In this document: positions 40,632-59,565 of the stretch, one piece after another
How positions within the stretch are numbered: position 1 is the first letter of the stretch
How the letters are laid out: each line of letters begins with the position of its first letter
Origin: Methanolobus zinderi
GTDB taxonomy: Archaea; Halobacteriota; Methanosarcinia; Methanosarcinales; Methanosarcinaceae
Direction of reading: 5' to 3'
Length of the DNA: 64,000 nt
NCBI RefSeq assembly: GCF_013388255.1
Contig: NZ_CP058215.1
Location: 1,550,001 to 1,614,000 of the forward strand
Notes under the pieces: model-generated
Told to the model about the DNA's origin: nothing
The model's database searches: none
The model's input: only the letters and a program-made list of their open reading frames with translations
Made by a program: the position numbers and the translations under genes

Positions 40632-42263
40632 TTACATCATACCTGTCATATCGTAGTTGTGGACGTTATGTTCTGGCTTTACATCCATCATTTCCTGTTC
40701 CCTGGCACGGAGCATGTCGTCCACACGCAGGATCATGATAGCAACTTCAGCTGCTGACTTGATGGCCTGGGTCTTAACCCTCAGAGGATCAACGATTCCC
40801 ATGTCGATCATGTTCGCAACATCCCCGGTGCTGATGTCAAGACCGCCGTATTTCACATCGCCGTGGTTGGCACGCAGATGCAGGAGTGTGTCAATCGCAT
40901 CGAAACCGCAGTTCTCTGCTATAGCCCTTGGGACCTCTTCCACTGCAGATGCGAATGCATCGATGGCCATCTGCTCACGTCCTCCGATACTTGAGGCATA
41001 TGCACGCAGGTTCTGTGCGACCTCGATCTCTGAGGCTCCGCCGCCGGCTACGATAGTGCTGTCCTCGAACACGGATTTTACAACATGCAGGGCGTCATCG
41101 AATACACGCTCAACATTATCTGTTACGTGCTCTGAACCTCCCTTGATGAGGATAGTCATGGTCCTTGACTGCTTGAAACCCTTGATATAGGTCTTCTCCT
41201 CGTGGAGGTCTTCCTGTTCCACAAGTTCTGCAAATCCAAGGTCGTCTGATGTGATGTCCTGTACATTCCTCACAAGTGAAGCACCGGTGGAGTAGGAAAG
41301 TGCCTCCATGTCCTCGTCATTGACACGCCTTGTGGCATATACGCCTGCTTCCTTGAAGAAGTGCAGTGCATAGTCATCAAGGTTCTTGGAACAGAATACC
41401 ACATTGGCACCTGTGTCGATGATCTTCTGGATTATCCTTCTGAAATTAGCCTTTTCCTGTTCCTTGAACTCAAAGAGCTGTTCAGCCCTGTCCACATGCA
41501 GCTTTGACTTGGTAGTTGTCTTGCCGAATGTGAGTTCGGTGTCAATAAGTGCTATCTTTGCATTCTCTATCCTGTGAGGCATCTCCATGTGAAGGGCCTC
41601 TTTTCTGATAGCAATGCCGTTTATAAGCTCTGTATCATCGATACTGCCACCGATCTCCTTTGCGATCACGATGTCATCGTCGACATTGACCTCGCCATCG
41701 TTCTCGATTGCAAATACAGCATCCACACAGATCTTTGCAAGGTGTGCACTTGCCATCTCGGATGCTTTTCCGGTGATAGAGGTCAGTGCTATCTTCTCAA
41801 GTATTTCCCTGTCATCTTTCTTGACATCCATGGAATAGTCCTTCAGTACCTGAAGGGCTTTCTCAGTTGCCATACTGTATCCCTTGACAATGATGGTAGG
41901 ATGAACACCCTGGGTGATCATATCCTGTGCTTTTTCAAGCAGTGCACCGGCCATGACCACAGCACTGGTTGTACCATCGCCAGCTGACTTCTCCTGTGTC
42001 TTTGCGACTTCCACAACCATCTTTGCTGTGGGATGTTCTATATCCATTTCATCAAGAATAGTCGCACCATCGTTTGTGAGAGTGATATCTCCCATGATAT
42101 TCACGAGCATCTTGTCCATTCCTTTTGGACCAAGAGTGGATCTTACTATCTTTGCAACAGCCTGTGCTGATGCGATATTTACTGATAATGCATCTTTTCC
42201 GCTAGTGCGCTCTTTACTTGGATCAACAATTATTACGGGCTGACCGCCACTTTGTCCTGCCAT
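40632..42263 (-). CDS. Thermosome subunit (group II chaperonin)
   Basis: The 543-residue chaperonin folds proteins in an ATP-driven double-ring chamber. Signatures: [33 protein letters not shown] (ATP phosphate loop) and [15 protein letters not shown] 42263 is chosen because GGAGGT lies 8 bases upstream; the frame continues eight codons further. The C-terminus ends [12 protein letters not shown], the usual mobile tail. A divergent chaperonin homologue lies at 53152. Confidence 0.96.
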
Positions 42264-42413
42264 GCTTCCAGACCTCCGATAAACCATATTAAATTCATGT
42301 CTAATTAAGTATGAGTGAAACTAACTGTGTGTGGTTCTATAAAAAGGTAACGAGTTGCCGAAGCAATTGCCTGGCTTCAAAACCTTTAACATATAAAGGG
42401 CCGTTTTCCGACT

Positions 42414-45465: not shown

Positions 45466-48006
45466 ATGACACAACTCGATGTAAATTCGGAAATTGCAAA
45501 AGTTATCAATGACAGCCCTGTAACAATTTTCATATGGAAGCCCGAAAACGGGTGGCCAGTGGAATTTGTCTCAGAAAACGTCAGACAATTTGGATACTCA
45601 TCCGATGATTTTCTTTCTGGCAAATTAAAATATGAAGATATTATCCATCCTGATGACATTGAAAGAGTACGTAGAGAGGTTACCGAATACTCTGAAGCAA
45701 ATGTTGATAATTTCACCCAGGAATACAGAATACTGACAGCATCGGGTGAGATTCGGTGCATTGATGACAGAACAATTATCAGAAGGTATGATGATGGTAA
45801 TATCCAGTACTATGAAGGTATTATTCTGGATATAAGCCAGAGAAAACTCTCTGAAACAATAATTGATTGCCGTAACCAGGTTCTTGAAGCTCTGGCTTCG
45901 GGTGAAACTCTGAATGAGATTCTTACACGTCTGGTGAAATCCACTAAAAAAATTATACCGGAAGCTATCAGTTTTGTCATGCTACTGGACGAGGAAAAGA
46001 AACATCTTGTTCATGCTATTTCTCCCGATCTTCCGGATTTCTACAAAAAAGCCATTGAAGGACTACCCATAGGTGAAGGCATAGGTTCCTGCTCAACTGC
46101 TGTTTACACCGGTAAAAGGGTTATTGTAGAGGATATAATGGAGCATCCTTACTGGGAAGACCTCAAGGATATTGCAGCCCGTGCAGGCTTTAGGGCCAGT
46201 TGTTGCGAACCCCTGATAAGTTCGAACAATGAAGTCTTTGGGACATTCGGGATGTACTTCCGCGAGCCACACACGCCTACAAAGGAAGAGATCGATATCC
46301 TCAAAGCAAACGCCAATCTTGCAGCTATCGCGATAAACAACAAGATGGTATTGGATAACGCTCTTGAATCTGAACGCAAACTTAAGATCATTTTCAACAA
46401 TGTAAACGATCAGATATATATCAGCGAACTAAACGGGAAAACTATTGCTGTGAACCAGGCTGTAGTAGATACACTGGATTACAGCAGGGAAGAGATGTTA
46501 AGTTCATACCCTTGCGATATCGTTCCGTCAGAAGATGTGCACCGCGTATCAAAACTGATGAAGGAGATCGAAACTGACGGAAGAGCGATATATGAAACCG
46601 AGGCGATACATAAGAATGGAAGGAAGATACCGCTGGAAATCAGTGCACGATTCATAATCTATGATGGGAAAAAAGCCATCCTGTCCGTTGCCAGAAACAT
46701 CAGTGAGCGCAAAAGAGCCGAAAAGAAGCGCCGTCTTGAAGAGGAGAGGCTTGAAGCTCTTGTTAAGCTTAACAGTATGACAGGTGCATCATTGGATGAG
46801 ATCACAGACTTTGCAAGGGAAGAAGCCGTAAGACTTACTGAAAGTTCACTTGGATACCTTGCATTTATGAATGCTGACGAAACCGCACTCATTATGCATT
46901 CCTGGTCTGAAGGTGCCATGAAGGAATGTGGTATCAAGAACAAACGCTTCGTATATCCCATAAAGACCACCGGCCTGTGGGGTGAAGCAGTAAGGCAGCG
47001 CAGACCTATAATAACAAATGAGTACTCACTTCCCAGTCCTATGAAAAAAGGATACCCCGAGGATCATGTCAGGCTTACAAGACACATGAATATTCCGATC
47101 TTCGATGGTGATCACATCGTAGCAGTTGCCGGTGTTGGAAATAAAGAAGAGGATTACGATGAATCAGATCTGCGCCAGCTTACCTTACTGATGCAGGGTA
47201 TGTGGAACCTCATTCAAAGAAAACAGATCGAAGATGCCTTAAAACAATATTCCGATGAACTGAAGGTGGCAAATGAGGAACTAAGGTCTGTCAGCATAAT
47301 GAAAACAGAATTTATCGCGGAAAGGATGGGACTTGAACACACACACGAACTCCCGGAGTGCAGTATCCTTCACGATGAAATGATCCGGGCCATTGATGAC
47401 CAGCAGGCCAAGTCCATCAATTCTGTATTGCTAAACTCTGAAAGATTAAAACGCATGGTAAATTCACTTATTTATATGAGTCAGGAGCAGGCAGGAAAGC
47501 TAAAATATGATTTTTCCCGGATACAACTGAACAAACTGATATCAGAAGCTGTGATGGATCTTATTTTACTGATAGATGAGAAAGGAATCGAGCTTGAAGT
47601 GAATGTACCTGACGGACTGCCACCGATAAGAGCTGATAAAGCTAAACTGACAGAAACATTGATTATCCTTATAGATAATGCGGTCAAATTTACTCCTGAA
47701 GGTGGAATGATAAACGTTGATCTAAGTGAAGAAAATGACCATCTGCACCTGAGGATAGCTGATACGGGACCAGGCATACAGAAAGACCTTATACCACATA
47801 TTTTCCAGAAATTCTATCAGATGGAGGATGCTATGAGTCGAATGTACCAGGGACTTGAGTCCGGCCTGTACATCTGTAAGGATATAATCCTTGAACATAA
47901 AGGCGAGATATGGATCGAAAGTAAAAAGGGTAAAGGAACAACATTCCACATAAGACTTCCAGTGGAAAGTCCGGAAGAGGATTCCTCACGAATTTCCAAA
48001 AAATGA
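45466..48006 (+). CDS. PAS-GAF-PAS-GAF sensor kinase of the methanogen Ms-type
   Basis: The 846-residue soluble sensor has PAS (about 8-125), GAF (about 130-300; GIGSCSTAVYTGKRVIVEDI), PAS (about 305-420), a second GAF (about 430-590) and a C-terminal HATPase with N-box IDNAVKFTPEGG and G-box DTGPGI. The usual SHELRTP phosphoacceptor is missing; residues about 612-680 (KTEFIAERMGLEHTHELPE...) occupy its place. MsmS of Methanosarcina acetivorans has a similar layout and binds heme through a Cys of a GAF domain; Cys488 (MKECGIK) is a candidate. It lies ten bases before an Msr-type regulator and upstream of the methyltransferases. Confidence 0.86.
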   Translation: MTQLDVNSEIAKVINDSPVTIFIWKPENGWPVEFVSENVRQFGYSSDDFLSGKLKYEDIIHPDDIERVRREVTEYSEANVDNFTQEYRILTASGEIRCIDDRTIIRRYDDGNIQYYEGIILDISQRKLSETIIDCRNQVLEALASGETLNEILTRLVKSTKKIIPEAISFVMLLDEEKKHLVHAISPDLPDFYKKAIEGLPIGEGIGSCSTAVYTGKRVIVEDIMEHPYWEDLKDIAARAGFRASCCEPLISSNNEVFGTFGMYFREPHTPTKEEIDILKANANLAAIAINNKMVLDNALESERKLKIIFNNVNDQIYISELNGKTIAVNQAVVDTLDYSREEMLSSYPCDIVPSEDVHRVSKLMKEIETDGRAIYETEAIHKNGRKIPLEISARFIIYDGKKAILSVARNISERKRAEKKRRLEEERLEALVKLNSMTGASLDEITDFAREEAVRLTESSLGYLAFMNADETALIMHSWSEGAMKECGIKNKRFVYPIKTTGLWGEAVRQRRPIITNEYSLPSPMKKGYPEDHVRLTRHMNIPIFDGDHIVAVAGVGNKEEDYDESDLRQLTLLMQGMWNLIQRKQIEDALKQYSDELKVANEELRSVSIMKTEFIAERMGLEHTHELPECSILHDEMIRAIDDQQAKSINSVLLNSERLKRMVNSLIYMSQEQAGKLKYDFSRIQLNKLISEAVMDLILLIDEKGIELEVNVPDGLPPIRADKAKLTETLIILIDNAVKFTPEGGMINVDLSEENDHLHLRIADTGPGIQKDLIPHIFQKFYQMEDAMSRMYQGLESGLYICKDIILEHKGEIWIESKKGKGTTFHIRLPVESPEEDSSRISKK

Positions 48007-48015
48007 GATGATAAA

Positions 48016-48801
48016 ATGAAATTGGCTCTGTTAGGTACTCTTTTTCTATCCGATAAAAGAAAAGATCTGCTCATCCTGCTGATAGAAAGACCGATGAATA
48101 TCGATGAGATCAAAACTACACTTAATGTTACTTCCAGTGCCATGATGACACAGATCAAGATTCTCATCGATCAAGGCATAATACTTTATGAGGATGATCA
48201 TTACAAGCTCTCAAGCTTTGGTGAGGTAATCGTAAAGAAAATGATCCCTCTTTTAAACACCTTGATGGTCTATGAAGATAACAAACAATACTGGGAAAAT
48301 CATAAAGTGAACGGAATTCCGACACATCTTCTTGAAAGAATAGAAGAACTGGGGGTCTGTGAACTCGTTGAGCCGGAACTTAACCGTATGTATGAACTCC
48401 CTAAAAAGCTAACTGACAATCTTGTAAAGTCAGAATACATAAAAGAAATCTCTTCTTCTTTCAGTCCGGCTTACCCTTATAAGTACATTGAACTTGCCAG
48501 AAAGGGCGTCCGAATATCACTCATAATTACAGAGCCTGTATTTGAAAGATTTGAAACGGAGTATTCTGAACAATTAAAGGATTACATCGGAATGGAAAAT
48601 ACCGAACTGTTTGTATGCAAAGACGATATCGGTTTTGCGTCCGGTGTGTTAACAGACAGATTCCTTTCATTGACCCTGTTCTATAAGAACGGAATGTTCC
48701 ACAATCATGCCATGATGAGTTTTGAAACGGGCGCATTGAAGTGGGGAGAGGACATGTACCGCTTTTACAGGAACACATCACAAGAAGTAACAGATATCTG
48801 A
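48016..48801 (+). CDS. Msr-type methanogenesis regulator (HTH plus DUF1724/FilR1-like domain)
   Basis: The 261-residue protein begins with a winged helix (DLLILLIERPMNIDEIKTTLNVTSSAMMTQIKILIDQGIIL) and ends in a FilR1/DUF1724-like output or sensor domain (ISLIITEPVFERFE...ENTELFVCKDDIGFASGVLTD). Msr regulators of Methanosarcina activate or repress fused corrinoid/methyltransferase genes nearby. It has no receiver domain, so any signal from the kinase ten bases upstream would be non-canonical. Likely targets are the repeats at 48902-49045. Confidence 0.9.
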   Translation: MKLALLGTLFLSDKRKDLLILLIERPMNIDEIKTTLNVTSSAMMTQIKILIDQGIILYEDDHYKLSSFGEVIVKKMIPLLNTLMVYEDNKQYWENHKVNGIPTHLLERIEELGVCELVEPELNRMYELPKKLTDNLVKSEYIKEISSSFSPAYPYKYIELARKGVRISLIITEPVFERFETEYSEQLKDYIGMENTELFVCKDDIGFASGVLTDRFLSLTLFYKNGMFHNHAMMSFETGALKWGEDMYRFYRNTSQEVTDI

Positions 48802-48901
48802 AATCCGGCTATCATATCAGAGATGTTTTCACTTCAGATATAATTTCATTTTTTTGACCTCAAAGTATCTTATTTTACTGTGTTCATTTTCGCGTTCATC
48901 A

Positions 48902-49045
48902 GATTAAAGCCATTAATTTGATTAAAGCCATTAATCTTGTTGGAGATCTTTCCTTTGGTTAACAGCGTTAATTAAAAGGCGTTCATTCATAAGATTGCGG
49001 TTCTGCTCAAAAAGAAACCCGGTTCATAATATTAACACCGTTAAT
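48902..49045 (+). promoter_or_regulatory. Operator-like repeats before the fused methyltransferase gene
   Basis: An 18-base tandem repeat GATTAAAGCCATTAATTT occurs at 48902-48919 and 48920-48937 (17/18 identical). It is followed by TTAACAGCGTTAA (48959-48971) and ATTAACACCGTTAAT (49031-49045), both of the form TTAAC-N3-GTTAA. No gene is visible from 48802 to 49154. These are the best candidates for Msr-type regulator binding. Confidence 0.6.
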
Positions 49046-49154
49046 AAATAACCGGAGGTTATGCTATATACCTCAAGTGAAATACTCCTCCTTGTTGACA
49101 GTGAAAAATGGAGGTTCACTGTTTAAAATAAAGCATAATACTTTGGAGGATAGT
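49046..49154 (+). promoter_or_regulatory. Structured 5' leader of the fused methyltransferase, with a possible 21-codon uORF
   Basis: The stretch before ATG 49155 holds a hairpin CAGTGAA (49099-49105)/TTCACTG (49115-49121) whose loop ends in GGAGG, an anti-ribosome-site-like ACTCCTCC (49084-49091), and the true ribosome site GGAGG (49145-49149). A short ATG frame (49061-49126, 21 codons) begins only two bases after another GGAGG. Together this resembles a translational control leader. Confidence 0.4.
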
Positions 49155-51062
49155 ATGAAAACATCAATTTTGAACCAATTAGCGGAATCTGTTGTCGAAG
49201 GTGACGACGATTTAGCAGAAGAACTTGCACAAAAAGCCCTTGATGAAGGTGTGGATCCTTACGAGGCCATAGTTGACGGACTCGCAAAAGGAATGATCAT
49301 TGTAAGTGACAATTACGAAAAAGGTGAAGCCTTTGTGCCACACCTGCTCATCGCATCCAGTGCCATGTATGCCGGTATGGACATACTGACACCTCATATG
49401 AAACTTGAAGAAGGTGCCGGAAAGCGTGCCGTAGGTGTGATCGGAACAATCGAAGGAGATGTGCACGACATAGGAAAGAATCTGGTCAAGACAATGATGT
49501 CTGCATCCGGCTTTGATATGGTAGATCTGGGCCACGATGTGCCTGTCGAGAAGTTCGTAGAGGTGGCAAAGGAGAAGAAGGCAGACCTGATTTCCATGAG
49601 TGCCTTGATGACCACTACCATGACCAACATGGAGAAGGTAATCGAGATGATGCAGGAGGAAGGTATCAGAGATTCCCTTATAGTCATGATAGGAGGAGCA
49701 CCTGTTTCACCTGAATTCGCGGAACAGATCGGTGCGGACTCTACACATCCGGATTCCATGTCAGCTACGGAATGGGCAAATAATGAGGTGCGTAAACTTG
49801 CTCCTGCTGATGAGAGATGGAGCGAGGAGAAGATATCACTTGGTAAGGTCAAATACAGAGAGATACTGTCTAAAAAGAAGGTTAAAGGAAAGACAGATAT
49901 CGGTCTGGAAACTGCGAAGCAGATCATTGCAGACTTTGAGAGCGTTGGCGTCAAGACAAAAGAGGAAATGACCCATATGGACAGGACGCTGGCAGCAATG
50001 GGTGACAAAAAGGTCGACAGATTGCCGGTATATCCGCTTGCCTGCGGAGTTTTGAGGAAATTCGCTGATGTCAGCTACAAAGAATATGCTACTGACATTA
50101 ATGCTTTTGTTGAAAGTGCTTACCTGGGATCCAAATACCTTGACACTGACATGTTCGTAGGACTCATTGACCTTTCTGCAACATCATCTGATTTCGGATG
50201 TAAGATCAAGTACCCTGAAGATGACACACCTTCATCCGAAGGACACCTTGAGGATTATGAGAGTATAGAAGTCCCTGAGGTCAAGGAGGGTACCCGTGCC
50301 TATGAGCTTGTAATGGCTTCCAAGGCGGCAACTGAGAAACTTAACAAGGAACTCAACACACCATTTGTCGGATTCCATGAAGGACCACTTCTTACCCTTA
50401 CCCAGCTTATGGGTGCAGACCGTGTTCTTATGGACATGAAGACACATCCTGATGTGGTACTTGAAGCAGTCCAGAAATGTACGGATTACATCTGTCAGGT
50501 ATCCGAACTGTTCTTTGAAGAAAATGCCTGTAACGCACTGTGTATCGATAACCTCTGGTCCAACAATGTGATCATGAGCGAGGAGGACTACTGGAAGTTC
50601 GACGGTAAGTTCGTATACGACCAGCACCTGCCGATCTTCAAGCAATACGACCAGCCATACATTATACACAATTGTGCGGATGCAGTACACTTTGACACAC
50701 AGATCAGCAAATTCGGAACTCAGCTATACAGTTACGCATACTATCCAAAACTCAGGAGTAAGGGCTCACAGAACTATGCAGACCTTATTCCAAAGTATGG
50801 ACAGGAATGTTGTATGATGGGAGAGGTCAACCCGGTAGAGTTCATGGACAACACACCTGCAGGTGTTCAGAAAGTAAAGGATGACACAAAAGAGTTGCTT
50901 GAAGGCGTGCTTCCTGTACTCAAGGAGAACGGAATGCAGTCCAAGTATGTCATGTCATCTGGTTGTGAGATTCCACCAGGAGGTCCTCTTACGACCGTGA
51001 AGGCTTCGGTAGATGTAGTTAAAGAGCTAGGTCCCGAGCTTCAGAAAAAGATATTCGGATAA
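49155..51062 (+). CDS. Fused corrinoid protein/zinc methyltransferase (MtsD/F/H-like)
   Basis: The 635-residue fusion has an N-terminal corrinoid module (residues 1-215) with four-helix cap and base-off motif GDVHDIGKN (His104), GGAPVSPEFAEQIGAD, a linker, and a C-terminal UROD-fold methyltransferase (about 275-635) with zinc ligands His505, Cys507 and Cys604 (HNCAD; SSGCEIPPGGP). Such fusions (MtsD, MtsF, MtsH) move methyl groups from methylated thiols or sulfides to coenzyme M. At 635 residues this is longer than the roughly 470 I recall for those. GGAGG precedes ATG 49155. The substrate is inferred to be a methylated sulfur compound but is not proven. Confidence 0.88.
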   Translation: MKTSILNQLAESVVEGDDDLAEELAQKALDEGVDPYEAIVDGLAKGMIIVSDNYEKGEAFVPHLLIASSAMYAGMDILTPHMKLEEGAGKRAVGVIGTIEGDVHDIGKNLVKTMMSASGFDMVDLGHDVPVEKFVEVAKEKKADLISMSALMTTTMTNMEKVIEMMQEEGIRDSLIVMIGGAPVSPEFAEQIGADSTHPDSMSATEWANNEVRKLAPADERWSEEKISLGKVKYREILSKKKVKGKTDIGLETAKQIIADFESVGVKTKEEMTHMDRTLAAMGDKKVDRLPVYPLACGVLRKFADVSYKEYATDINAFVESAYLGSKYLDTDMFVGLIDLSATSSDFGCKIKYPEDDTPSSEGHLEDYESIEVPEVKEGTRAYELVMASKAATEKLNKELNTPFVGFHEGPLLTLTQLMGADRVLMDMKTHPDVVLEAVQKCTDYICQVSELFFEENACNALCIDNLWSNNVIMSEEDYWKFDGKFVYDQHLPIFKQYDQPYIIHNCADAVHFDTQISKFGTQLYSYAYYPKLRSKGSQNYADLIPKYGQECCMMGEVNPVEFMDNTPAGVQKVKDDTKELLEGVLPVLKENGMQSKYVMSSGCEIPPGGPLTTVKASVDVVKELGPELQKKIFG

Positions 51063-51096
51063 GCAGGAACTATCACTTCCCCCTGCTTTTCCTTTT
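51061..51096 (+). terminator. Hairpin and T-run after the fused methyltransferase
   Basis: AAGCAGG (51061-51067) pairs with CCTGCTT (51082-51088), followed by a T-rich tract to 51097. It begins at the stop codon and should end or attenuate the transcript. Confidence 0.6.
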
Positions 51097-51098
51097 TA

Positions 51099-51194
51099 CT
51101 CATAGTGGTTTGAAAAATCACTTTATGAGGTCTATATCCACAGTGTGGCAAACCGCTCTGCTCCACAATATACACAGGGTGGTAAGCCACTCTG
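51099..51194 (+). promoter_or_regulatory. Three successive hairpins in the leader of the hydantoinase-like gene
   Basis: A hairpin CTCATA-GTGGTTT/AAATCAC-TTTATGAG spans 51099-51129 with a small bulge. Two related hairpins follow at a 34-base period: CAGTGTGG-CAAA-CCGCTCTG (51141-51160) and CAGGGTGG-TAAG-CCACTCTG (51175-51194). Differences in the stems keep pairing mostly through G-U wobble. Each is followed by CTCCACA. ATG 51221 lies 27 bases on. Confidence 0.55.
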
Positions 51195-51220
51195 CCTCCA
51201 CATAAAAGAAGGTGATAATA

Positions 51221-53155
51221 ATGAACTTTGGACTTGGCATAGACACTGGCGGTACATATACAGATTCTGTAATTATGAATCTTGAAGACGGATCAATAAT
51301 AGATTCAAACAAATCGCTTACTACTTACCCTGATCTAATAAAGGGCATAATAAATTCAATTGACGGCCTTAAAGCCGAATATCTTGCAAATGTGAGATTC
51401 ACTTCAGTATCTACCACACTAGCCACCAACACCACACTGGAAGGCAGAGGATATCCGGCAGGTCTCATACTTATTGGTTATAATATATCACGGAAAATTC
51501 CCACCGATCATATCCTTTCCATAAAAGGCGGACATGATGCAGACGGAAACGAAGTTGAAACTCTGGGCAACCTGGATGAAGTGGAAAAATTTGTCACAAT
51601 GAACAAACATAAGGTCTCATCCTTTGCCGTATCATCGTATTTTGGAGTGCGCAATCCTGAACATGAACTGAGGATAAAAGAGATCATCCAGGATCTGACA
51701 GATCTCCCTGTTGTCTGCGGACACGAACTTTCCATGGATCTCGGAGCATATGAAAGGGCTTTGACCGCACTTCTCAATGCTCAGCTGATCCCGGTAATCG
51801 ACCAGTTCATCAGATCAGTAAGGTCTGTAATGGAGGATAAGAAGATTGATTCTGTCCTGATGATGATGAAATGTGACGGCTCGCTGGTCAGGATAGAAGA
51901 AGCACTGAAAAAACCTGTGGAATCCATTTTCTCCGGACCTGCTGCAAGTCTCCTTGGCGCTGCACATCTAACGGATCTAAAAGAGTGCCTGACCATAGAT
52001 GTGGGAGGTACGAGTACGGACATTTCAATGATCCGCAATAGCATGCCTGTTGTCAGTAGTTCAGGTGCCGTAGTTGGAGGCTGGGATACAAAGGTCAAGG
52101 CTATCAAAATGAATACCTCTGCCATTGGAGGAGACAGTCATGTATGGATTCATGAGAAAACAAATATGGGGCCTAACAGGGTCATACCCCTGTGCCTTTG
52201 CGCTTCCGAATTCCCGTCCCTTATAAACAAATTACAGAACGCTGAAAAGATCTCAAGGCGCATAATGAATGACATCCTTCAGCCAACAACGTTCTTCATG
52301 TGCAATGGAGTAAAATCCCATTGTCTTTATGCCTCTGAACTTGAGGGAGAAGAGATAGAAATATTCGATGCCATAAATGAAGAGCCTTCTTCCATATCGG
52401 ATATTGCCTCAAGGACAAACAAGCATCCACTGATGTTCGAAGATATACTGAGAAGGCTCATACAGAAAAGATATATCAAACAGGTAGGTTTCACCCCGAC
52501 AGACGTCCTGCATGTGACCGGTGACTATACCAGATGGGATTCCAATGCATCGATGCTGGGAGCCACAATACTTTCAGATTATACATCCATGGAGCCCTTC
52601 GATCTCTGTGAAAAACTCAGGGAGGACGTGGCCAAGGAAATTGTGCTTAATCTGATTGCACACTGTGCGAATACCGTGAAAAAAACCGATCTGGAAAAAA
52701 TATTGAATGGCACAGAACTCATGAAATTCATGATTAAAAGTCCGGTGGTACTGGTTGGTGCACCTGTAACACCGTATATGAAAGACATGAAACATTTCAT
52801 TGATGCGGATATAAGGATCCCTGAATTCCATGAAGTAGGTAATGCTGTAGGTGCTCTTGTCGGTAACGTGGTCTACAGGGGAGAGGCTTTGATCAGACCC
52901 ACAGCACCCGGAAGCTCACAGTATCTGCTATTCTCGGAAAAAGGAAGATACACGTTCGATGACTATCAGGAGGCTCTTGACACGGCAAATTCCCTTGTCA
53001 ACAGCACAGTTTCAGAATACATGGCAGGCTACGGATTGAGTATGGACAATGTAAGTTTTGATCTTGAATGTAATGATATCGGAAGTATCGGAACGGTACC
53101 TCTGGAGACTAAAATAGTAGGAGTAGCTGTCGGTTCTCCAAGGAGAATAATATGA
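51221..53155 (+). CDS. Hydantoinase/oxoprolinase family protein (HyuA-like)
   Basis: This 644-residue ASKHA-fold protein has N-terminal GLGIDTGGTYTDSVI (phosphate 1 loop), SVSTTLATNTTLEGRG, ESIFSGPAASLLGAAHL and LTIDVGGTSTDISMI, so ATP binding is likely. Residues about 377-425 look like a winged helix (IFDAINEEPSSISDIASRTNK) inserted in the C-terminal half. Named members cleave hydantoins or oxoproline or activate acetone carboxylase; here the neighbours point instead to corrinoid methyltransferase work, perhaps an ATP-driven activation step. AAGGTGAT precedes ATG 51221. It overlaps the chaperonin gene by four bases. Confidence 0.88.
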   Translation: MNFGLGIDTGGTYTDSVIMNLEDGSIIDSNKSLTTYPDLIKGIINSIDGLKAEYLANVRFTSVSTTLATNTTLEGRGYPAGLILIGYNISRKIPTDHILSIKGGHDADGNEVETLGNLDEVEKFVTMNKHKVSSFAVSSYFGVRNPEHELRIKEIIQDLTDLPVVCGHELSMDLGAYERALTALLNAQLIPVIDQFIRSVRSVMEDKKIDSVLMMMKCDGSLVRIEEALKKPVESIFSGPAASLLGAAHLTDLKECLTIDVGGTSTDISMIRNSMPVVSSSGAVVGGWDTKVKAIKMNTSAIGGDSHVWIHEKTNMGPNRVIPLCLCASEFPSLINKLQNAEKISRRIMNDILQPTTFFMCNGVKSHCLYASELEGEEIEIFDAINEEPSSISDIASRTNKHPLMFEDILRRLIQKRYIKQVGFTPTDVLHVTGDYTRWDSNASMLGATILSDYTSMEPFDLCEKLREDVAKEIVLNLIAHCANTVKKTDLEKILNGTELMKFMIKSPVVLVGAPVTPYMKDMKHFIDADIRIPEFHEVGNAVGALVGNVVYRGEALIRPTAPGSSQYLLFSEKGRYTFDDYQEALDTANSLVNSTVSEYMAGYGLSMDNVSFDLECNDIGSIGTVPLETKIVGVAVGSPRRII

Positions 53156-54759
53156 GCACATCTATTGAACAGATACAAAACACGCATGCTTTGGACAATA
53201 TGGATGCTCTGAAGCAAAGTGTACGCAATCGTATCGGAATCAGGGAAGATGTTGAAGAGGATGAACTGATATACCAGATGTTACAGGCTTCCCAGGACAT
53301 CAAAGAACTCTTTACATCATCTTTCGGACCCTGTGGATTGAGTAAGCTGATAATCAGCCCCACAGACGATATTTATCTGACAAGTGACGGGAAAACAATT
53401 ATTGAACAGATAGATGTCCTGCATCCAGTGGTCACGTCCCTCAAAGAGCTTGCCATGTCAATGGACAGGGTATGCGGCGATGGTACGAAGACCGCGGTCA
53501 TCCTTGCTGCCTCGCTTATCGAGAATGCTGCCAAACTTGTGGAGTACGGACTGCATCCGACAACCATAATAAAAGGATATCAGCTTGCTCTGAGTAAAGC
53601 GTATGAGATCATGGATTATGAGACTAGCCGGATAGTTTCTGACAGCGATCTGCATTCTGTTATAGAGAATGCCAGCCTGAGTAAAGGTGTCGAAACTCAT
53701 CAGGCCCGGTTGATAGCAGACATCGTTCTAAGAACACTTTCAAAACTCGGAGACATACAGGCTAATAACCGCATAGATCTGAATGATTATGTCAAAGTCA
53801 TAAAAAAAGTAGGTGGGCCATCTATTGAATCCATTTCAGGTATAATTCTTGATGAAACACCTTCAAGAGATGACATGCCGCATTATTTAGAAAATGCGGA
53901 TGTCCTTATGATCAACGGGAATGTCAGATTTGAAAGTAAGATCATAAATTCCCAGCATAATATAAGATTCGATGGTTTTGACAATTCCACACTTCTGCTG
54001 GACGGCCAAATGAAGGCTTTGAAAGCCCACTCACAGAAAATAATTGGTTCCGGAGCTAACGTTGTTCTGTGTGAAGGAAAAGTGGACGAATATGTAGAGG
54101 AAGCCCTGGCAAAGCATGGTATTCTGCTTTTCGATAAACTGAAGATCAGGGATATGGAGATGATCGCAAAAGCAACAGGTGCAAACATCATTTCCATCAA
54201 GGATGATATACTGCCCCAGGATCTGGGTTTTGCCGATGAGGTGAAAGTTGAAAAAAGAAACGATGAGCATTTCTTTTTCCTCTCTGTAAACGAACAGCCG
54301 ATATCCACGATCCTGATATGGGAACCCTTCAGATATGGCCTGGAAAAACTTGAGGAAGCAGTGGATGATGCCATTAATAATGCGGCATTCATATTGAAGA
54401 ATCCTCTTGTAGTCAAAGGAGGAGGAGATATTGAATTTGTGCTCTCACAAATGCTCAGGAAGTATTCTTCCACTGTCGAAGGCAAAGAGCAGCTTGCAGT
54501 GATCGAATATGCGAATGCCCTTGAAGAGATACCAAGAACGCTGGCAAGGAATGTAGGTCTCAATGAGGTTGACGCAATAGCACACATGCTCAATTACTAT
54601 AGCAAGGGAATTGACTGCAGGATCGACCTTACACGAGAGGTCGTTGCAAACAACCCTCCTGTATATGATTCATCAAGCATTAAACAGATGGCTCTTATCG
54701 CGGGAACCGAGGCTGTAAGCAATATGCTGAGAATTGATGAGATCGTACTTAAAAAGTAA
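53152..54759 (+). CDS. Divergent group II chaperonin (Hsp60-4/-5-like)
   Basis: The 535-residue protein is clearly a thermosome homologue but far from the 40632 gene. It keeps FGPCGLSKLI (for [10 protein letters not shown]), TSDGKTIIEQI, VCGDGTKTAVI (phosphate loop) and VVKGGGDIEFV, and an Asp pair at AVDDAIN where the catalytic Asp is expected, so ATPase activity is plausible. It lacks the Met/Gly-rich C-terminal tail, ending RIDEIVLKK. Divergent chaperonins were described in Methanosarcina acetivorans. Translation is coupled to the HyuA-like gene (ATGA overlap), within a methyltransferase operon, suggesting a dedicated folding or assembly role. Confidence 0.9.
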   Translation: MSTSIEQIQNTHALDNMDALKQSVRNRIGIREDVEEDELIYQMLQASQDIKELFTSSFGPCGLSKLIISPTDDIYLTSDGKTIIEQIDVLHPVVTSLKELAMSMDRVCGDGTKTAVILAASLIENAAKLVEYGLHPTTIIKGYQLALSKAYEIMDYETSRIVSDSDLHSVIENASLSKGVETHQARLIADIVLRTLSKLGDIQANNRIDLNDYVKVIKKVGGPSIESISGIILDETPSRDDMPHYLENADVLMINGNVRFESKIINSQHNIRFDGFDNSTLLLDGQMKALKAHSQKIIGSGANVVLCEGKVDEYVEEALAKHGILLFDKLKIRDMEMIAKATGANIISIKDDILPQDLGFADEVKVEKRNDEHFFFLSVNEQPISTILIWEPFRYGLEKLEEAVDDAINNAAFILKNPLVVKGGGDIEFVLSQMLRKYSSTVEGKEQLAVIEYANALEEIPRTLARNVGLNEVDAIAHMLNYYSKGIDCRIDLTREVVANNPPVYDSSSIKQMALIAGTEAVSNMLRIDEIVLKK

Positions 54760-54778
54760 AAGTCCCGGGGGAGTATAA

Positions 54779-55894
54779 GTGGCTGAAGAAATGACTTCAA
54801 AGGAGCGTTTTATCAACGCCCTTGAATTAAAAGAAGTGGACAGAGCACCACTTGGGTATTTGTGGTTTGGAGCCGGTAATGCGGTACTTGAGCGGATGAA
54901 TGCAAACATGAAGGATGTTTACTACTCCGCAGAGGGAATTGCAAGAGCACAAATCCTGGCACGGGAAATGTATCATCATGACAATGTAATGTCTCCATGG
55001 GGATGTTTGCTTGTGGAAGCGGAAGCCTTAGGCGCAAAAATAAACATCAAAAAAGAAGGCTATCCCACCATAGCAGAATTTCCTCTAAAGTCTGCAAAAG
55101 AATATGAGAATATCGATCCCATTGACATAGAACGCTCGGAAAGGGTAAAGACCATTGTAGAATCCATCGGCTTGCTCAAAAAGCAGCTTGGAGATGAGGC
55201 TTTTATTACCTGTTCACTCCTTCCTCCTTTCATGATCGCTTCCCAGCTAATGGATGGAAGCAAGATGTTCATTGAAATGATGAAAGATCCCGATAATTTC
55301 CATGCACTGCTTGATGTCCTTACGGATAGTTGCATAACCTTTGCAGATATGATGCTTGATGCAGGAGCAGACGGTGCATTTATCGAGAACGGTGGCAGCA
55401 CTTCGGATCTTTTCAGTCTGGAAATGGCAAAGGAATTCGGGTTTAAGTACTCTAAAAAATTATATTCACATGTACAGGGCAGGGGTGCTTACGTAATTTC
55501 ACATAACTGTGCAAACCATGCATTCTTTGAACTTGAAAAGGCTCTTGAACCCGATGCTTTGAATTTCTTCTTTGGAGATGTAGAAGCACTCGGAGAAAAA
55601 TATGGGGTTGATTGTCTGAAGATTCACAATCATAAACACATTGGTTGCAGTGAAAGATATTGTTTCAGGGATTTCAAAGATTTCAGTGATTCCGGCATAT
55701 GCCTGATGGGAAATATCAATCCTTATGCATTCACTTCAGGAAGAAGCGACAAAATCGATGCCGAAGTTAAGCGCTGCATGGATGCAGCTCCTGAGAAAGG
55801 ATTTATACTAGCCACCGGGTGTGAAATTCCATTGGATACACCTCAGGAAGAGATGAAAATTCTCTGGGAATCTATGAAATCTTGTTTAAAATAG
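54779..55894 (+). CDS. Zinc methyltransferase, MtaA/MtbA-like (UROD fold)
   Basis: This 371-residue single-domain methyltransferase begins SKERFINALELKEVDRAPLGYLWFG, the family N-terminus, and carries zinc ligands His242, Cys244 (SHNCANH) and Cys348 (TGCEIPLDTP). Such proteins move methyl groups between a corrinoid protein and coenzyme M, or from a substrate to corrinoid. GTG 54779 with GGGGGAG upstream is the start. The sequence diverges from the fused protein upstream, so the two probably act at different steps. It is the third gene of its operon. Confidence 0.88.
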   Translation: MAEEMTSKERFINALELKEVDRAPLGYLWFGAGNAVLERMNANMKDVYYSAEGIARAQILAREMYHHDNVMSPWGCLLVEAEALGAKINIKKEGYPTIAEFPLKSAKEYENIDPIDIERSERVKTIVESIGLLKKQLGDEAFITCSLLPPFMIASQLMDGSKMFIEMMKDPDNFHALLDVLTDSCITFADMMLDAGADGAFIENGGSTSDLFSLEMAKEFGFKYSKKLYSHVQGRGAYVISHNCANHAFFELEKALEPDALNFFFGDVEALGEKYGVDCLKIHNHKHIGCSERYCFRDFKDFSDSGICLMGNINPYAFTSGRSDKIDAEVKRCMDAAPEKGFILATGCEIPLDTPQEEMKILWESMKSCLK

Positions 55895-55904
55895 GGGGAT
55901 TAAA

Positions 55905-57527
55905 ATGTACGCAATTGCATTAGATGTGGGAACCAGCGGCTTTAGGGCTCAATTGATCGATCTGAAAACAAAGAAAGTCGTTAAGACTTCAATGACAATG
56001 AAACATCCGTTGCCTGGAGGAAACGTAACCGACCATCTTGACTTTGCCATATCCATCGGGGAAGATGTGGCACACAGGATCATCATAGATGCCGTCGGAA
56101 AAATGATAGAAGGTTTTAATATAGATACATTGCAGATATCAAAGATGGCGGTCTGTGGTAACCCTATACAACTCTCACTTTTCCAGAATTCGGAAATACG
56201 TGATCTGGCCTATGCAGGGAGAAACATGCAAAAGAGACTGGGCATAGAGGAAATAAAACGAGATGCCCGGATGTTCAAGGCTACGGATATATTTCAGGGA
56301 ACTTTAAACCTTGATAATTGTGTGATAATCATTCCGCCTGCCATCGAGCATGAGATCGGTGCCGATGCACTTGCCATGATGGTGGAGACGGATTTTCTTG
56401 AACAGGAAGAACCAACTCTTGTAACAGACTACGGAACGAATGCTGAGATGGCTATAAAGATAGGCAGCAGGATAATCACAGGAAGCGCTGCTGCCGGACC
56501 GGCTATAGAGGGACAGGGAATAGATTGTGGTATGCTTGCCGGTCCCGGGGCCATCACGGATGTCAATCCGGAAGATGGTTTCTGGAGAATAACCGTACTT
56601 GACGAGAACATGGAAACTGTAAAAGGTCATCTTGTAGATCCGATAACCGGAACTATTCATGAAAAATCGGATATAGTGCCTGATGGTATTACAGGAACCG
56701 GTCTCATTTCCATATTGTCCCTTGCCATGGAAACAGGGATCGTAATCACCCCACCCAAGCTAAAATACGGAAAGATCGAACTGGGTGAGGGAATAGAGGT
56801 ATCGGAAGAAGATATAAAAGAAGCTGGCAAGGCCATAGGTGCCATAAGGGCTGCACAACTGACCCTGATACATGAATCCGGGATCGCCTATGAAGACCTT
56901 GAAAGCATGTATATGAGCGGTGCTTCCGGAACCTATGTGGATCCTGTGAAAGCAAGGAAAATTGGCTCATGTCCGGATTTTACAAAGAGAACAGTGCAAT
57001 TCGGGAACACATCCCTGGCTCTTGCAAGGGACATAGTCACTGAAAATGTGAAGCTTGACGTGCTGATCGAATTAGCAGGACATATAAAGGCAGATCATCT
57101 TATGATGGCAACCAGTGAAACCTTCAAAAGGTTCTACGCCTGTGAACTGGGATACTGGACAGAGGGTATGTCCATGGAGATGTACCGGAAACTTTTGAAG
57201 ATGTCGAAATTGCCTGAACTGCCAGCACCCATCGAATATCCGATTATTGAGAAAAGGGTCAGTAAAGATATCAGTGAGACCGGTTCAGGCAGAGTTGAAG
57301 TGATAGAGGACATAGGGGAAACTCTTGAGGAGATGGCAGTTGGGTGCATAATGTGCCATAAATGCGAAAAAGAATGTCCTGAGAAAGCAATATTCATAAA
57401 ATCAGACGGAAATTTCACTGCAGAGTACAATACTCTGAAATGTCTGGGGACGGCGTGCAAAAGATGTGTGAGTGTGTGTCCGGTGCATGCAATTGACTAC
57501 AAGGAAATAACGATTGCGGAAGAATGA
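55905..57527 (+). CDS. ramA: RamA-like corrinoid activation protein
   Basis: RamA reduces inactive Co(II) corrinoid proteins to Co(I) using ATP. The 540-residue protein has an N-terminal ASKHA-type LDVGTSGFRAQLIDL, TDYGTNAEMA and GSAAAGPAIEGQGI (DUF4445 region), and ends with two [4Fe-4S] motifs, CIMCHKCEKECPEKA and CLGTACKRCVSVCPVHA (about 485-530). Length matches RamA of Methanosarcina barkeri (about 60 kDa). GGGGG precedes ATG 55905, ten bases after the methyltransferase. Its place implies that the corrinoid protein encoded at 49155 is its client. Confidence 0.93.
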   Translation: MYAIALDVGTSGFRAQLIDLKTKKVVKTSMTMKHPLPGGNVTDHLDFAISIGEDVAHRIIIDAVGKMIEGFNIDTLQISKMAVCGNPIQLSLFQNSEIRDLAYAGRNMQKRLGIEEIKRDARMFKATDIFQGTLNLDNCVIIIPPAIEHEIGADALAMMVETDFLEQEEPTLVTDYGTNAEMAIKIGSRIITGSAAAGPAIEGQGIDCGMLAGPGAITDVNPEDGFWRITVLDENMETVKGHLVDPITGTIHEKSDIVPDGITGTGLISILSLAMETGIVITPPKLKYGKIELGEGIEVSEEDIKEAGKAIGAIRAAQLTLIHESGIAYEDLESMYMSGASGTYVDPVKARKIGSCPDFTKRTVQFGNTSLALARDIVTENVKLDVLIELAGHIKADHLMMATSETFKRFYACELGYWTEGMSMEMYRKLLKMSKLPELPAPIEYPIIEKRVSKDISETGSGRVEVIEDIGETLEEMAVGCIMCHKCEKECPEKAIFIKSDGNFTAEYNTLKCLGTACKRCVSVCPVHAIDYKEITIAEE

Positions 57528-57565
57528 CATTTCAGGTCTTTCGACATAAACTACGGGAGGATTCG

Positions 57566-57880
57566 ATGACAGAAGTAAGAGTAAATTCCAGGATATGTGG
57601 ATTCACACATATAGTCAGGGGAAAAAGAGATGGTAAAAAGATAATTGTTGACATTGATACACCATGTGAGAAAATCAAGAAAATGTCTCATCTGGAAGTC
57701 GACATGATGGATCTATTTGATATAAAAGATAATCTTGTGATGGAAAAGGCCAAAGAGGCAAGATGTACCCCCACATGCCTTGTACCCTGCGCAGTGATGC
57801 ACGTTTGTTGCATAGAGGCAGATTTTATGTCGGATACCCTTGCCAAGGAAACAGGAAGTATCAGTATAGATTTCCTATAA
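57566..57880 (+). CDS. Small cysteine-rich protein of the RamA operon
   Basis: The 104-residue protein opens MTEVRVNSRICGFTHIVRGKRDGKKIIVDIDTPCEKIKKMS and has a C-terminal run of cysteines (CTPTCLVPCAVMHVCCIEAD). It resembles small proteins found next to RamA-like genes (I recall the label DUF6951, not checked). GGGAGG precedes ATG 57566; the frame is open to 57524. Cys grouping suggests metal or Fe-S binding, perhaps an electron or corrinoid handling role; this is inference. Confidence 0.75.
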   Translation: MTEVRVNSRICGFTHIVRGKRDGKKIIVDIDTPCEKIKKMSHLEVDMMDLFDIKDNLVMEKAKEARCTPTCLVPCAVMHVCCIEADFMSDTLAKETGSISIDFL

Positions 57881-57883
57881 CCG

Positions 57884-57897
57884 ATTTTCTTTTTTAA
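57884..57897 (+). terminator. T-rich terminator after the RamA operon
   Basis: TTTTCTTTTTTAAT-like sequence just after the stop at 57880, preceded by an AGGAA...TTCCT pairing, fits an archaeal oligo-T terminator. The following methyltransferase would then be separately transcribed. Confidence 0.4.
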
Positions 57898-57965
57898 TAT
57901 AAGAATCATTTTAAGAATTAGTCTTCAAATACACCAAATAAAGATTATTAAAAGGATGGTATTAC

Positions 57966-59012
57966 ATTAGCGAATCAAAATCGGATATCTATAACAAATT
58001 TCAGGACATACTTGATGGAAAAAAAACAGGCACTCCTCTTGTGGGTACGGCCACCACATCAGCAACAATTGACCTGATGGATGTTTCCGGAGCAAGCAGA
58101 CCAGAAGCTGACAGGGATCCGGAAAAAATGGCAAAACTTGCATCTTCTTTACACACGGATGCAAAGTTTGAGCTCATACGTATCCCATTTGATGTGACAG
58201 TGATCGGAGAGGCACTTGGCTGCCAGATCGATTTCGGCACAAAGGCAAGAACGCCATCGGTAATAACCCACCCATTTGAAGATAATCCTGAGGATGTTGA
58301 AATACCCGGTGATCTGCTGGAGAGGGGAAGAATACCTGTTGTGATGGAAGCAATTTCCCTTCTTAAAAAGGATCCCGGATTACAGGTGCCTTTAGTTGCA
58401 GGTATTGAAGGTCCTGCTGATCTTGCGTCTTATCTCTGGGGGATCAGATCTTTCTTAAAATCAACTATCAAGAAACCTGAAATTGCAAAGGATATAATCG
58501 AAAAATGCATCGATGCCTGTATAATTTCTGCCAACGCTTATCTTCGTTCAAGTGCAGATGCGGTTGTGGTCGCGGATGCTCTGTCCTCTCCCGAGATGAT
58601 GGGACCTGACGCATTCAGGCAAATTGTAAAACCTGCACTGATCAGATTTAATAAGAGTATAAAAGGCCATAGTATCCTCCATGTATGCGGGGAAACGGAT
58701 AGTATTATACCGGACATGCTTGAATGTGGTTTTAGTGCTATAAGTGTCGAAGAAAATGTGAAGGATCTCAAATATGTGATCGATCTTGCACACAGGAACA
58801 ATACGGCGGTTATCGGAAATATTTCGACCGCGGACACACTTTATCGAAAGACACCGGAAGATGTAAGAAAAGAAGCCTTTAGGTGTCTGGATACAAATAT
58901 CGATATACTTGCTCCCGGATGCGGTCTGGCACCTGAGACGCCATTGGAGAATCTTCTGGCTATGGTCGAGGCAAGGGACGAATATGTTTCAAATTCAGAA
59001 GGTACCCTCTGA
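57966..59012 (+). CDS. Zinc methyltransferase, MtaA/MtbA-like, apparently with AUU start
   Basis: This UROD-fold methyltransferase has zinc ligands His239, Cys241 (ILHVCGETD) and Cys319 (LAPGCGLAPETP), and PLVGTATTSATIDLMDVSGA, as in MtaA. The family N-terminal helix (KFQDILDGKKTGTP) is encoded upstream of GTG 58041, but no ATG, GTG or TTG lies in frame before the stop at 57939. ATT 57966 sits about 6 bases after GGATGGT, so translation probably starts at AUU (348 residues), or an ATG has mutated. Starting at 58041 would drop the helix. It probably makes methyl-coenzyme M. Confidence 0.8.
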   Translation: MSESKSDIYNKFQDILDGKKTGTPLVGTATTSATIDLMDVSGASRPEADRDPEKMAKLASSLHTDAKFELIRIPFDVTVIGEALGCQIDFGTKARTPSVITHPFEDNPEDVEIPGDLLERGRIPVVMEAISLLKKDPGLQVPLVAGIEGPADLASYLWGIRSFLKSTIKKPEIAKDIIEKCIDACIISANAYLRSSADAVVVADALSSPEMMGPDAFRQIVKPALIRFNKSIKGHSILHVCGETDSIIPDMLECGFSAISVEENVKDLKYVIDLAHRNNTAVIGNISTADTLYRKTPEDVRKEAFRCLDTNIDILAPGCGLAPETPLENLLAMVEARDEYVSNSEGTL

Positions 59013-59211
59013 ATCCCAGAAGTATTCAGTATAATAGCTCAATGTAGTAAGATACGCTAATTTGCCTGTCTTCGGGGTTCATCAGGGCAAACAATTTATG
59101 TACCGTTGAATCCTTTTGTCAATTCGTTTAATTCAAAGCTTATCATTTACCTATAATACAGTTAATATTACATAGGTAATTGTAAGAAGAAAGTATTTCG
59201 GAGTTAGAGAG

Positions 59212-59565
59212 ATGCCCAATTATCATGTTATACTTGAAGCCGCCTGGTTGGTAAGAGATGTAAAAACAGCCGATGATGCCATTGGTGTTGCTATTTCGGA
59301 GGCAGGAAAGCGCCTGAACCCTAAGCTCGATTACGTTGAAGTGGATATCGGAACCACTTTCTGTCCTTCCTGCAGTGCCCCCTTCTCAAGCGTGTTCCTT
59401 GCAGCAAATACAGCCATTGTAGGACTGGTCCTTGAAATGAAGGTATTTGATGCTGAAAGTGATGAGCATGCCGCAAGGATAGCAAAATCCGTTATCGGAA
59501 GAGCACTCAGGGATGTACCCCTGGATGTAGTGGATGTACAGCCATTCGATGAGGAATCGATTTAA
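59212..59565 (+). CDS. UPF0212/DUF555 family protein
   Basis: This 117-residue archaeal protein begins [36 protein letters not shown] and carries FCPSCSAPF, a small zinc-like Cys pair. It is conserved in methanogens and uncharacterised. GGAG lies upstream of ATG 59212. The following kinase gene starts 26 bp on. Confidence 0.88.

Follow-up and report, generated by a model that had tools for sequence, protein, structure and literature searches.

Why should a chaperonin gene stand in the middle of a cluster of corrinoid methyltransferase genes? The question is raised by a 64,000-nucleotide stretch of the Methanolobus zinderi genome (the window; G000:C1:1550001-1614000 within a closed genome of 2.70 Mb), where genes for a fused corrinoid and zinc methyltransferase, here called Mts, lie together with those for a HyuA-like ATPase, a divergent chaperonin, two further zinc methyltransferases, the reductive activase RamA and a Cys-rich small protein. 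A preliminary description of the window had named these genes, and open reading frames (ORFs), Pfam and NCBIfam confirmed every one of them in its place. Our answer, to which we give a probability of roughly 60 %, is that this protein, a group II chaperonin that depends on ATP, is dedicated to one client, the fused two-domain Mts methyltransferase.

In none of the genomes searched did the chaperonin gene occur apart from a fused Mts gene, which agrees with its being dedicated to the methyltransferases, as had been proposed. A fused Mts gene lay within 3.2 kb of it, on the same strand, at all 49 whole-genome loci with enough flank, and at the chaperonin loci of named species one was also near wherever the contig extends far enough. 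At ordinary thermosome loci no gene of this cluster was nearby (0 of 44). Among 112 genomes of the family, 47 have both the chaperonin and Mts and 59 neither, none has the chaperonin alone and six have Mts alone; within six genera the presence of one gene co-varies with that of the other. The six Mts-only genomes are fragmented assemblies, in which nearly all Mts contigs stop at the expected start of the chaperonin gene and one contig (G101:C138) holds a broken Mts gene; these cases fit assembly breaks. The usual gene order is mtsD-hyuA-cpn or mtsF-cpn, cpn being the chaperonin gene. At two loci (L167, L168) the chaperonin is upstream of Mts, so that the order is not fixed and the link to Mts outlives rearrangement. 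Family genomes without fused Mts have no such chaperonin despite having ordinary corrinoid methyltransferases, and the tie is therefore to the fused enzyme; the idea of a general partner of corrinoid methyltransferases was rejected on this ground.

The Mts-linked chaperonins form a distinct clade. In a family-wide search its members were 44-100 % identical to the window chaperonin and ordinary thermosomes at most 34 %, leaving a clear gap, and in a class-wide search the clade was present in 47 of 238 genomes. A scan of 84,980 species, one genome each, with degenerate patterns that can miss relatives, gave named members in Methanolobus, Methanosarcina, Methanococcoides, Methanosalsum, Methanohalobium and Methanimicrococcus, beyond which identity falls to 34 %; the nearest named relatives are Methanolobus species. 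The label divergent is correct, since the window protein scores 343, 342 and 336 bits against the NCBIfam thermosome models, under their cut-offs of 671, 450 and 400. With group II chaperonins such as the thermosome and Mm-cpn of Methanococcus maripaludis it has in common a full-length Cpn60_TCP1 domain, GDGT, the catalytic Asp (DDA), the nucleotide-sensing Lys and GGG. The ATP-binding and catalytic residues are invariant across the clade, the apical part of the alignment contains no large gap, and the ratio of nonsynonymous to synonymous substitution rates (dN/dS) is 0.13-0.14 between close relatives; the gene is under purifying selection. The earlier observation that the ATP motifs are kept and the C-terminal tail is lost thus extends to the clade, all 50 checked copies of which end, as the window copy does, 6-7 residues past LRxD and so have no Gly/Met-rich tail of the ordinary thermosome kind. 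Unlike ordinary thermosomes, the clade is tail-less, distant from them, tied to one enzyme gene and patchily present.

Relatives outside the family were sought with an Mts profile in a phylum-wide sample of 393 genomes. This yielded just two more fused Mts genes, both in one other family (f10), where 2 of 55 genomes have one. At both loci a divergent, tail-less chaperonin lies 9 and 12 bp downstream of the fused Mts gene (L263:8045-9586, L264:2022-3617) and RamA is convergent; HyuA was not found in these loci, which are stretches of 18 and 9.2 kb. Between the chaperonin and RamA there is a gene for a 180-188 residue protein with no Pfam match (L263:9589-10131, L264:3639-4205 (minus strand)). 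One f10 genome (G378) has a dsrA match of 664 bits and no McrA match, and is therefore not methanogen-like; PGF-CTERM and transporter hints suggest that f10 may be Archaeoglobaceae. In trees the Mts-linked chaperonins of f10 join the Mts clade and stand apart from every thermosome, those of f10 among them; an independent origin of these chaperonins from the f10 thermosomes was rejected (approximately unbiased test, p 5e-5), a result to be taken with caution because the branches are long. That the chaperonin is found only beside fused Mts genes, even in f10, makes it a probable accessory protein devoted to Mts. Chaperonins are usually generalists, and a clade always located beside the same enzyme gene, in two archaeal families, would be a rare natural example of dedication to one client.

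The putative client is a known enzyme. The product of 49155-51062 carries the corrinoid motif GDVHDIG and the zinc motif HNC...GCEIP, and it is 81 % identical to the product of G074:C1:1019009-1020913, which we take to be MA0859 (MtsD); the genome G074 is itself taken as that of Methanosarcina acetivorans C2A, with locus tags mapped by position and identity. A tree of Mts proteins shows a clean division between a D and an F clade, the window protein being inside the former. MtsD of M. acetivorans (MA0859) is the dimethylsulfide-preferring enzyme among three fused Mts proteins (PMC7374477). Judged by sequence, the cluster is the mtsD locus of this dimethylsulfide methyltransferase, and the suggestion of a new system does not hold for the methyltransferases, the fused one being MtsD. 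MtsD, MtsF and MtsH of M. acetivorans (MA0859, MA4384, MA4558) have the same domain order and motifs as the window protein, with nothing important different; as in the window, mtsD of M. acetivorans is preceded by the regulator pair and has HyuA and chaperonin genes for neighbours. The chaperonin was not described for Mts in the papers found, and our literature search gave none that connects a chaperonin to mts genes, though an earlier notice in older mts or Hsp60 work is possible.

How might such a chaperonin act? The fused Mts is a protein of ~70 kDa, in which a corrinoid domain is joined to a URO-D TIM barrel, and the TIM barrel is a fold that chaperonins often serve. Upon induction of the dimethylsulfide cluster, the chaperonin would fold or assemble the fused Mts, RamA would next reduce the corrinoid, and MtaA-like proteins would transfer the methyl groups to coenzyme M. 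This would add a maturation step to the archaeal pathway from dimethylsulfide to methane. Several points weigh against this explanation. Both the client and folding as the activity are inferred, and from linkage by itself folding is not distinguishable from the insertion of a cofactor or the assembly of a complex. No chaperonin adjoins certain Mts copies, namely MtsH of M. acetivorans, a second MtsD (G016) and a second copy in G010, although their genomes have one elsewhere. In the f10 copies the Asp of TNDG is replaced by Lys and the catalytic Asp by Ser or Asn, so that ATP hydrolysis has probably been lost; to judge from these residues, ATP-driven folding could not be the whole story in f10. 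A bolder extension, which we find doubtful, is that this branch of group II chaperonins is a one-client maturation chamber for fused Mts, common to methanogens and an mcrA-less archaeon and working in the latter free of ATP hydrolysis; besides folding, such a chamber may aid domain docking or cobamide insertion.

Some genomes have more than one Mts-linked chaperonin. Within a single Methanosarcina genome the D-linked and the F-linked chaperonin often come out as sisters in the chaperonin tree, and in two genomes (G007, G083) they are identical or nearly so, while the Mts neighbours of the sister chaperonins belong to two old clades. From the sequences this looks like gene conversion, and exchange between D- and F-linked copies would imply that both enzymes are served by chaperonins of one type. 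At L129 (G007), L079/L080 (G083) and L123/L124 (G074) the two or three Mts-linked copies of a genome show concerted evolution. As to expression, limitation of MCR raises mtsD ~100-fold (PMC11267899), and under HdrED repression the genes MA4384-MA4394, with mtsF and mtaCB2 among them, form a single regulated block (PMC11619418). In G074 the chaperonin gene is located between mtsF and mtaCB2 and should therefore belong to this regulated block. Immediately upstream of this MtsF-linked chaperonin there are ~500 bases of CAAAA-rich repeats (L124:9280-9790).

That the cassette is induced by energy stress (PMC11267899, PMC11619418) and is patchy within genera would also suit a general stress chaperonin that is carried along by the dimethylsulfide cassette and expressed together with it, for instance as a means against thiol or sulfide stress, with no preference for Mts. 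We consider this unlikely. A gene of that kind should sometimes move away, whereas the chaperonin is beside Mts in two families, with varied gene orders and other neighbours, and never elsewhere; moreover, the f10 copies, which have lost ATPase residues in part, fit a general folding machine poorly.

The subunit composition of the chaperonin must also be considered. Hsp60-4 and Hsp60-5 are reportedly extra group II subunits of M. acetivorans, and of the five group II subunits listed for this species two must be the clade members found in G074; a client-dedicated chaperonin would offer a concrete role for the extra ones. Instead of forming a homomeric ring of its own, the protein could be a specialised subunit that combines with those of the ordinary thermosome in mixed rings and adjusts these to Mts. 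Group II subunits number five in M. acetivorans, the composition of archaeal rings with several subunits is described as not fully elucidated (PMC6420498, PMC5220055), and the ATPase-poor f10 copies could function in a mixed ring. The clade is, however, far from the other subunits (at most 34 % identity), and we regard mixed rings as quite unlikely in comparison with a chaperonin dedicated to Mts.

The second ATPase of the cluster, the HyuA-like protein, has intact ASKHA phosphate motifs (GIDTGGT, IDVGGTSTD). Its AlphaFold2 model (predicted local distance difference test score 80) finds acetone carboxylase beta (Z 24) and acetophenone carboxylase (Apc) alpha (Z 20) as the best folds, followed by ASKHA activases and diol-dehydratase reactivase. 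It shares the Hydant_A_N and Hydantoinase_A domains with both carboxylase subunits and with hydantoinase/oxoprolinase (HyuA). Unlike these enzymes it lacks a partner of the HyuB or carboxylase type in the cluster, neither an ORF nor a domain resembling HyuB being found in 45466-59565, and it sits among methyl-transfer genes. By analogy of fold it would most likely be a corrinoid or enzyme reactivase.

The HyuA-like family has 4-9 members per genome. In the window genome they are found directly after mcrA (G000:C1:900561-902519, L117), beside mtrH and methanogenesis marker 8 (2302141-2304057, L121), as a tandem pair between mtmB/mttB genes, beside mtaB/mtaC and at the mtsD locus. With the paralogues after mcrA and beside mtrH, this ASKHA ATPase family is tied to operons of core methanogenesis. 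Of 53 HyuA-like genes in eight genomes, 32 have a methyl-transfer operon within ~9 kb and the other 21 have none, counted against an incomplete reference set. Hence, where the preliminary description had asked whether the chaperonin and HyuA genes would prove unlinked to methyltransferases, the chaperonin is linked throughout and HyuA in part. The two had also been seen as a pair. The HyuA and chaperonin genes share an ATGA overlap in the window, which bears out their translational coupling, but HyuA is missing at many Mts-chaperonin loci, such as the MtsF loci and both f10 loci, and HyuA paralogues occur without a chaperonin at mtsH, mta, mtm, mcr and mtr operons. An obligate pair was therefore rejected, each being found without the other, and the HyuA-like protein would rather be a member of a wider methyl-transfer-associated ATPase family with no obligate chaperonin partner. 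The same distribution bears on the mechanism proposed earlier, in which the chaperonin, with HyuA as a second ATP-driven factor, loads or reactivates corrinoid on the methyltransferases. The overlapping genes, the intact ASKHA motifs with dehydratase activases and the diol-dehydratase reactivase among the fold neighbours, and the many methyl-transfer operons flanked by HyuA paralogues agree with it. As the chaperonin and HyuA occur apart at the loci just named, and as unfused corrinoid proteins manage without a chaperonin, we consider it very unlikely.

Table 1 Genes of the mtsD cluster in the window (window coordinates)
Feature	Position	Strand	Evidence
PAS/GAF sensor kinase, RdmS/MsmS-like	45466..48006	+	Pfam PAS, GAF, HATPase_c; HisKA not recognised
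FilR1/Msr-type transcription regulator	48016..48801	+	PF08350 129 bits
MtsD-type fused corrinoid + URO-D zinc methyltransferase	49155..51062	+	B12-binding_2 + B12-binding + URO-D
HyuA-like ASKHA ATPase, 644 aa	51221..53155	+	Hydant_A_N 98 bits + Hydantoinase_A 105 bits
Mts-associated group II chaperonin, tail-less	53152..54759	+	Cpn60_TCP1 PF00118 391 bits, positions 1-488 of 490
URO-D (MtaA/MtbA-like) zinc methyltransferase	54779..55894	+	PF01208 216 bits; HNC...GCEIP motif
RamA corrinoid reductive activase	55905..57527	+	TIGR04270 746 bits, cut-off 500
DUF6951, Cys-rich, 104 aa	57566..57880	+	PF22263
MtaA, methylcobamide:CoM methyltransferase	57966..59012	+	NF040654 424 bits, cut-off 400

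The remaining genes of the cluster are collected in Table 1. The unit begins further upstream than previously described and includes the kinase and the FilR1-type regulator. An orthologue of the kinase precedes most mtsD loci having enough flank, and copies of the regulator that are 58-63 % identical are found upstream of Methanosarcina mtsD. RdmS of M. acetivorans (MA0863) is a kinase without an H-box (PMC11784639). No tRNA and no Rfam RNA was found in the region when searched. RamA has two Cys clusters and Fer4 domains, and no difference from known RamA was seen, the TIGR04270 score being far over the cut-off. The DUF6951 gene probably starts at 57566 rather than at 57524, with GGAGG upstream. 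Cys11, Cys34 and Cys71 of the protein are invariant; VIA-align gave weak matches to IscU/SufU (Z up to 5.1) and Foldseek no match below 0.001. From this weak fold evidence the protein may be an IscU-like scaffold, perhaps for the iron-sulfur clusters of RamA.

The MtaA gene probably starts at ATT (57966-57968). Its reading frame stays open N-terminally of the GTG at 58041, a start that would remove a conserved stretch, and ATT precedes the conserved N-terminus also in three relatives (L108, L109, L112), one of which (L112) has an additional in-frame ATG two codons before the ATT. Two further chaperonin genes of the genome may be mentioned. The fifth chaperonin (L005/L122) was considered as client-specific and rejected, since it stands beside ClpB and a 94-residue ORF and is probably of the group I GroEL/GroES type. 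On the minus strand of the window (40632-42287), 11 kb from the divergent chaperonin, there is a gene for an ordinary thermosome subunit, the C-terminus of which is extended and rich in Met.

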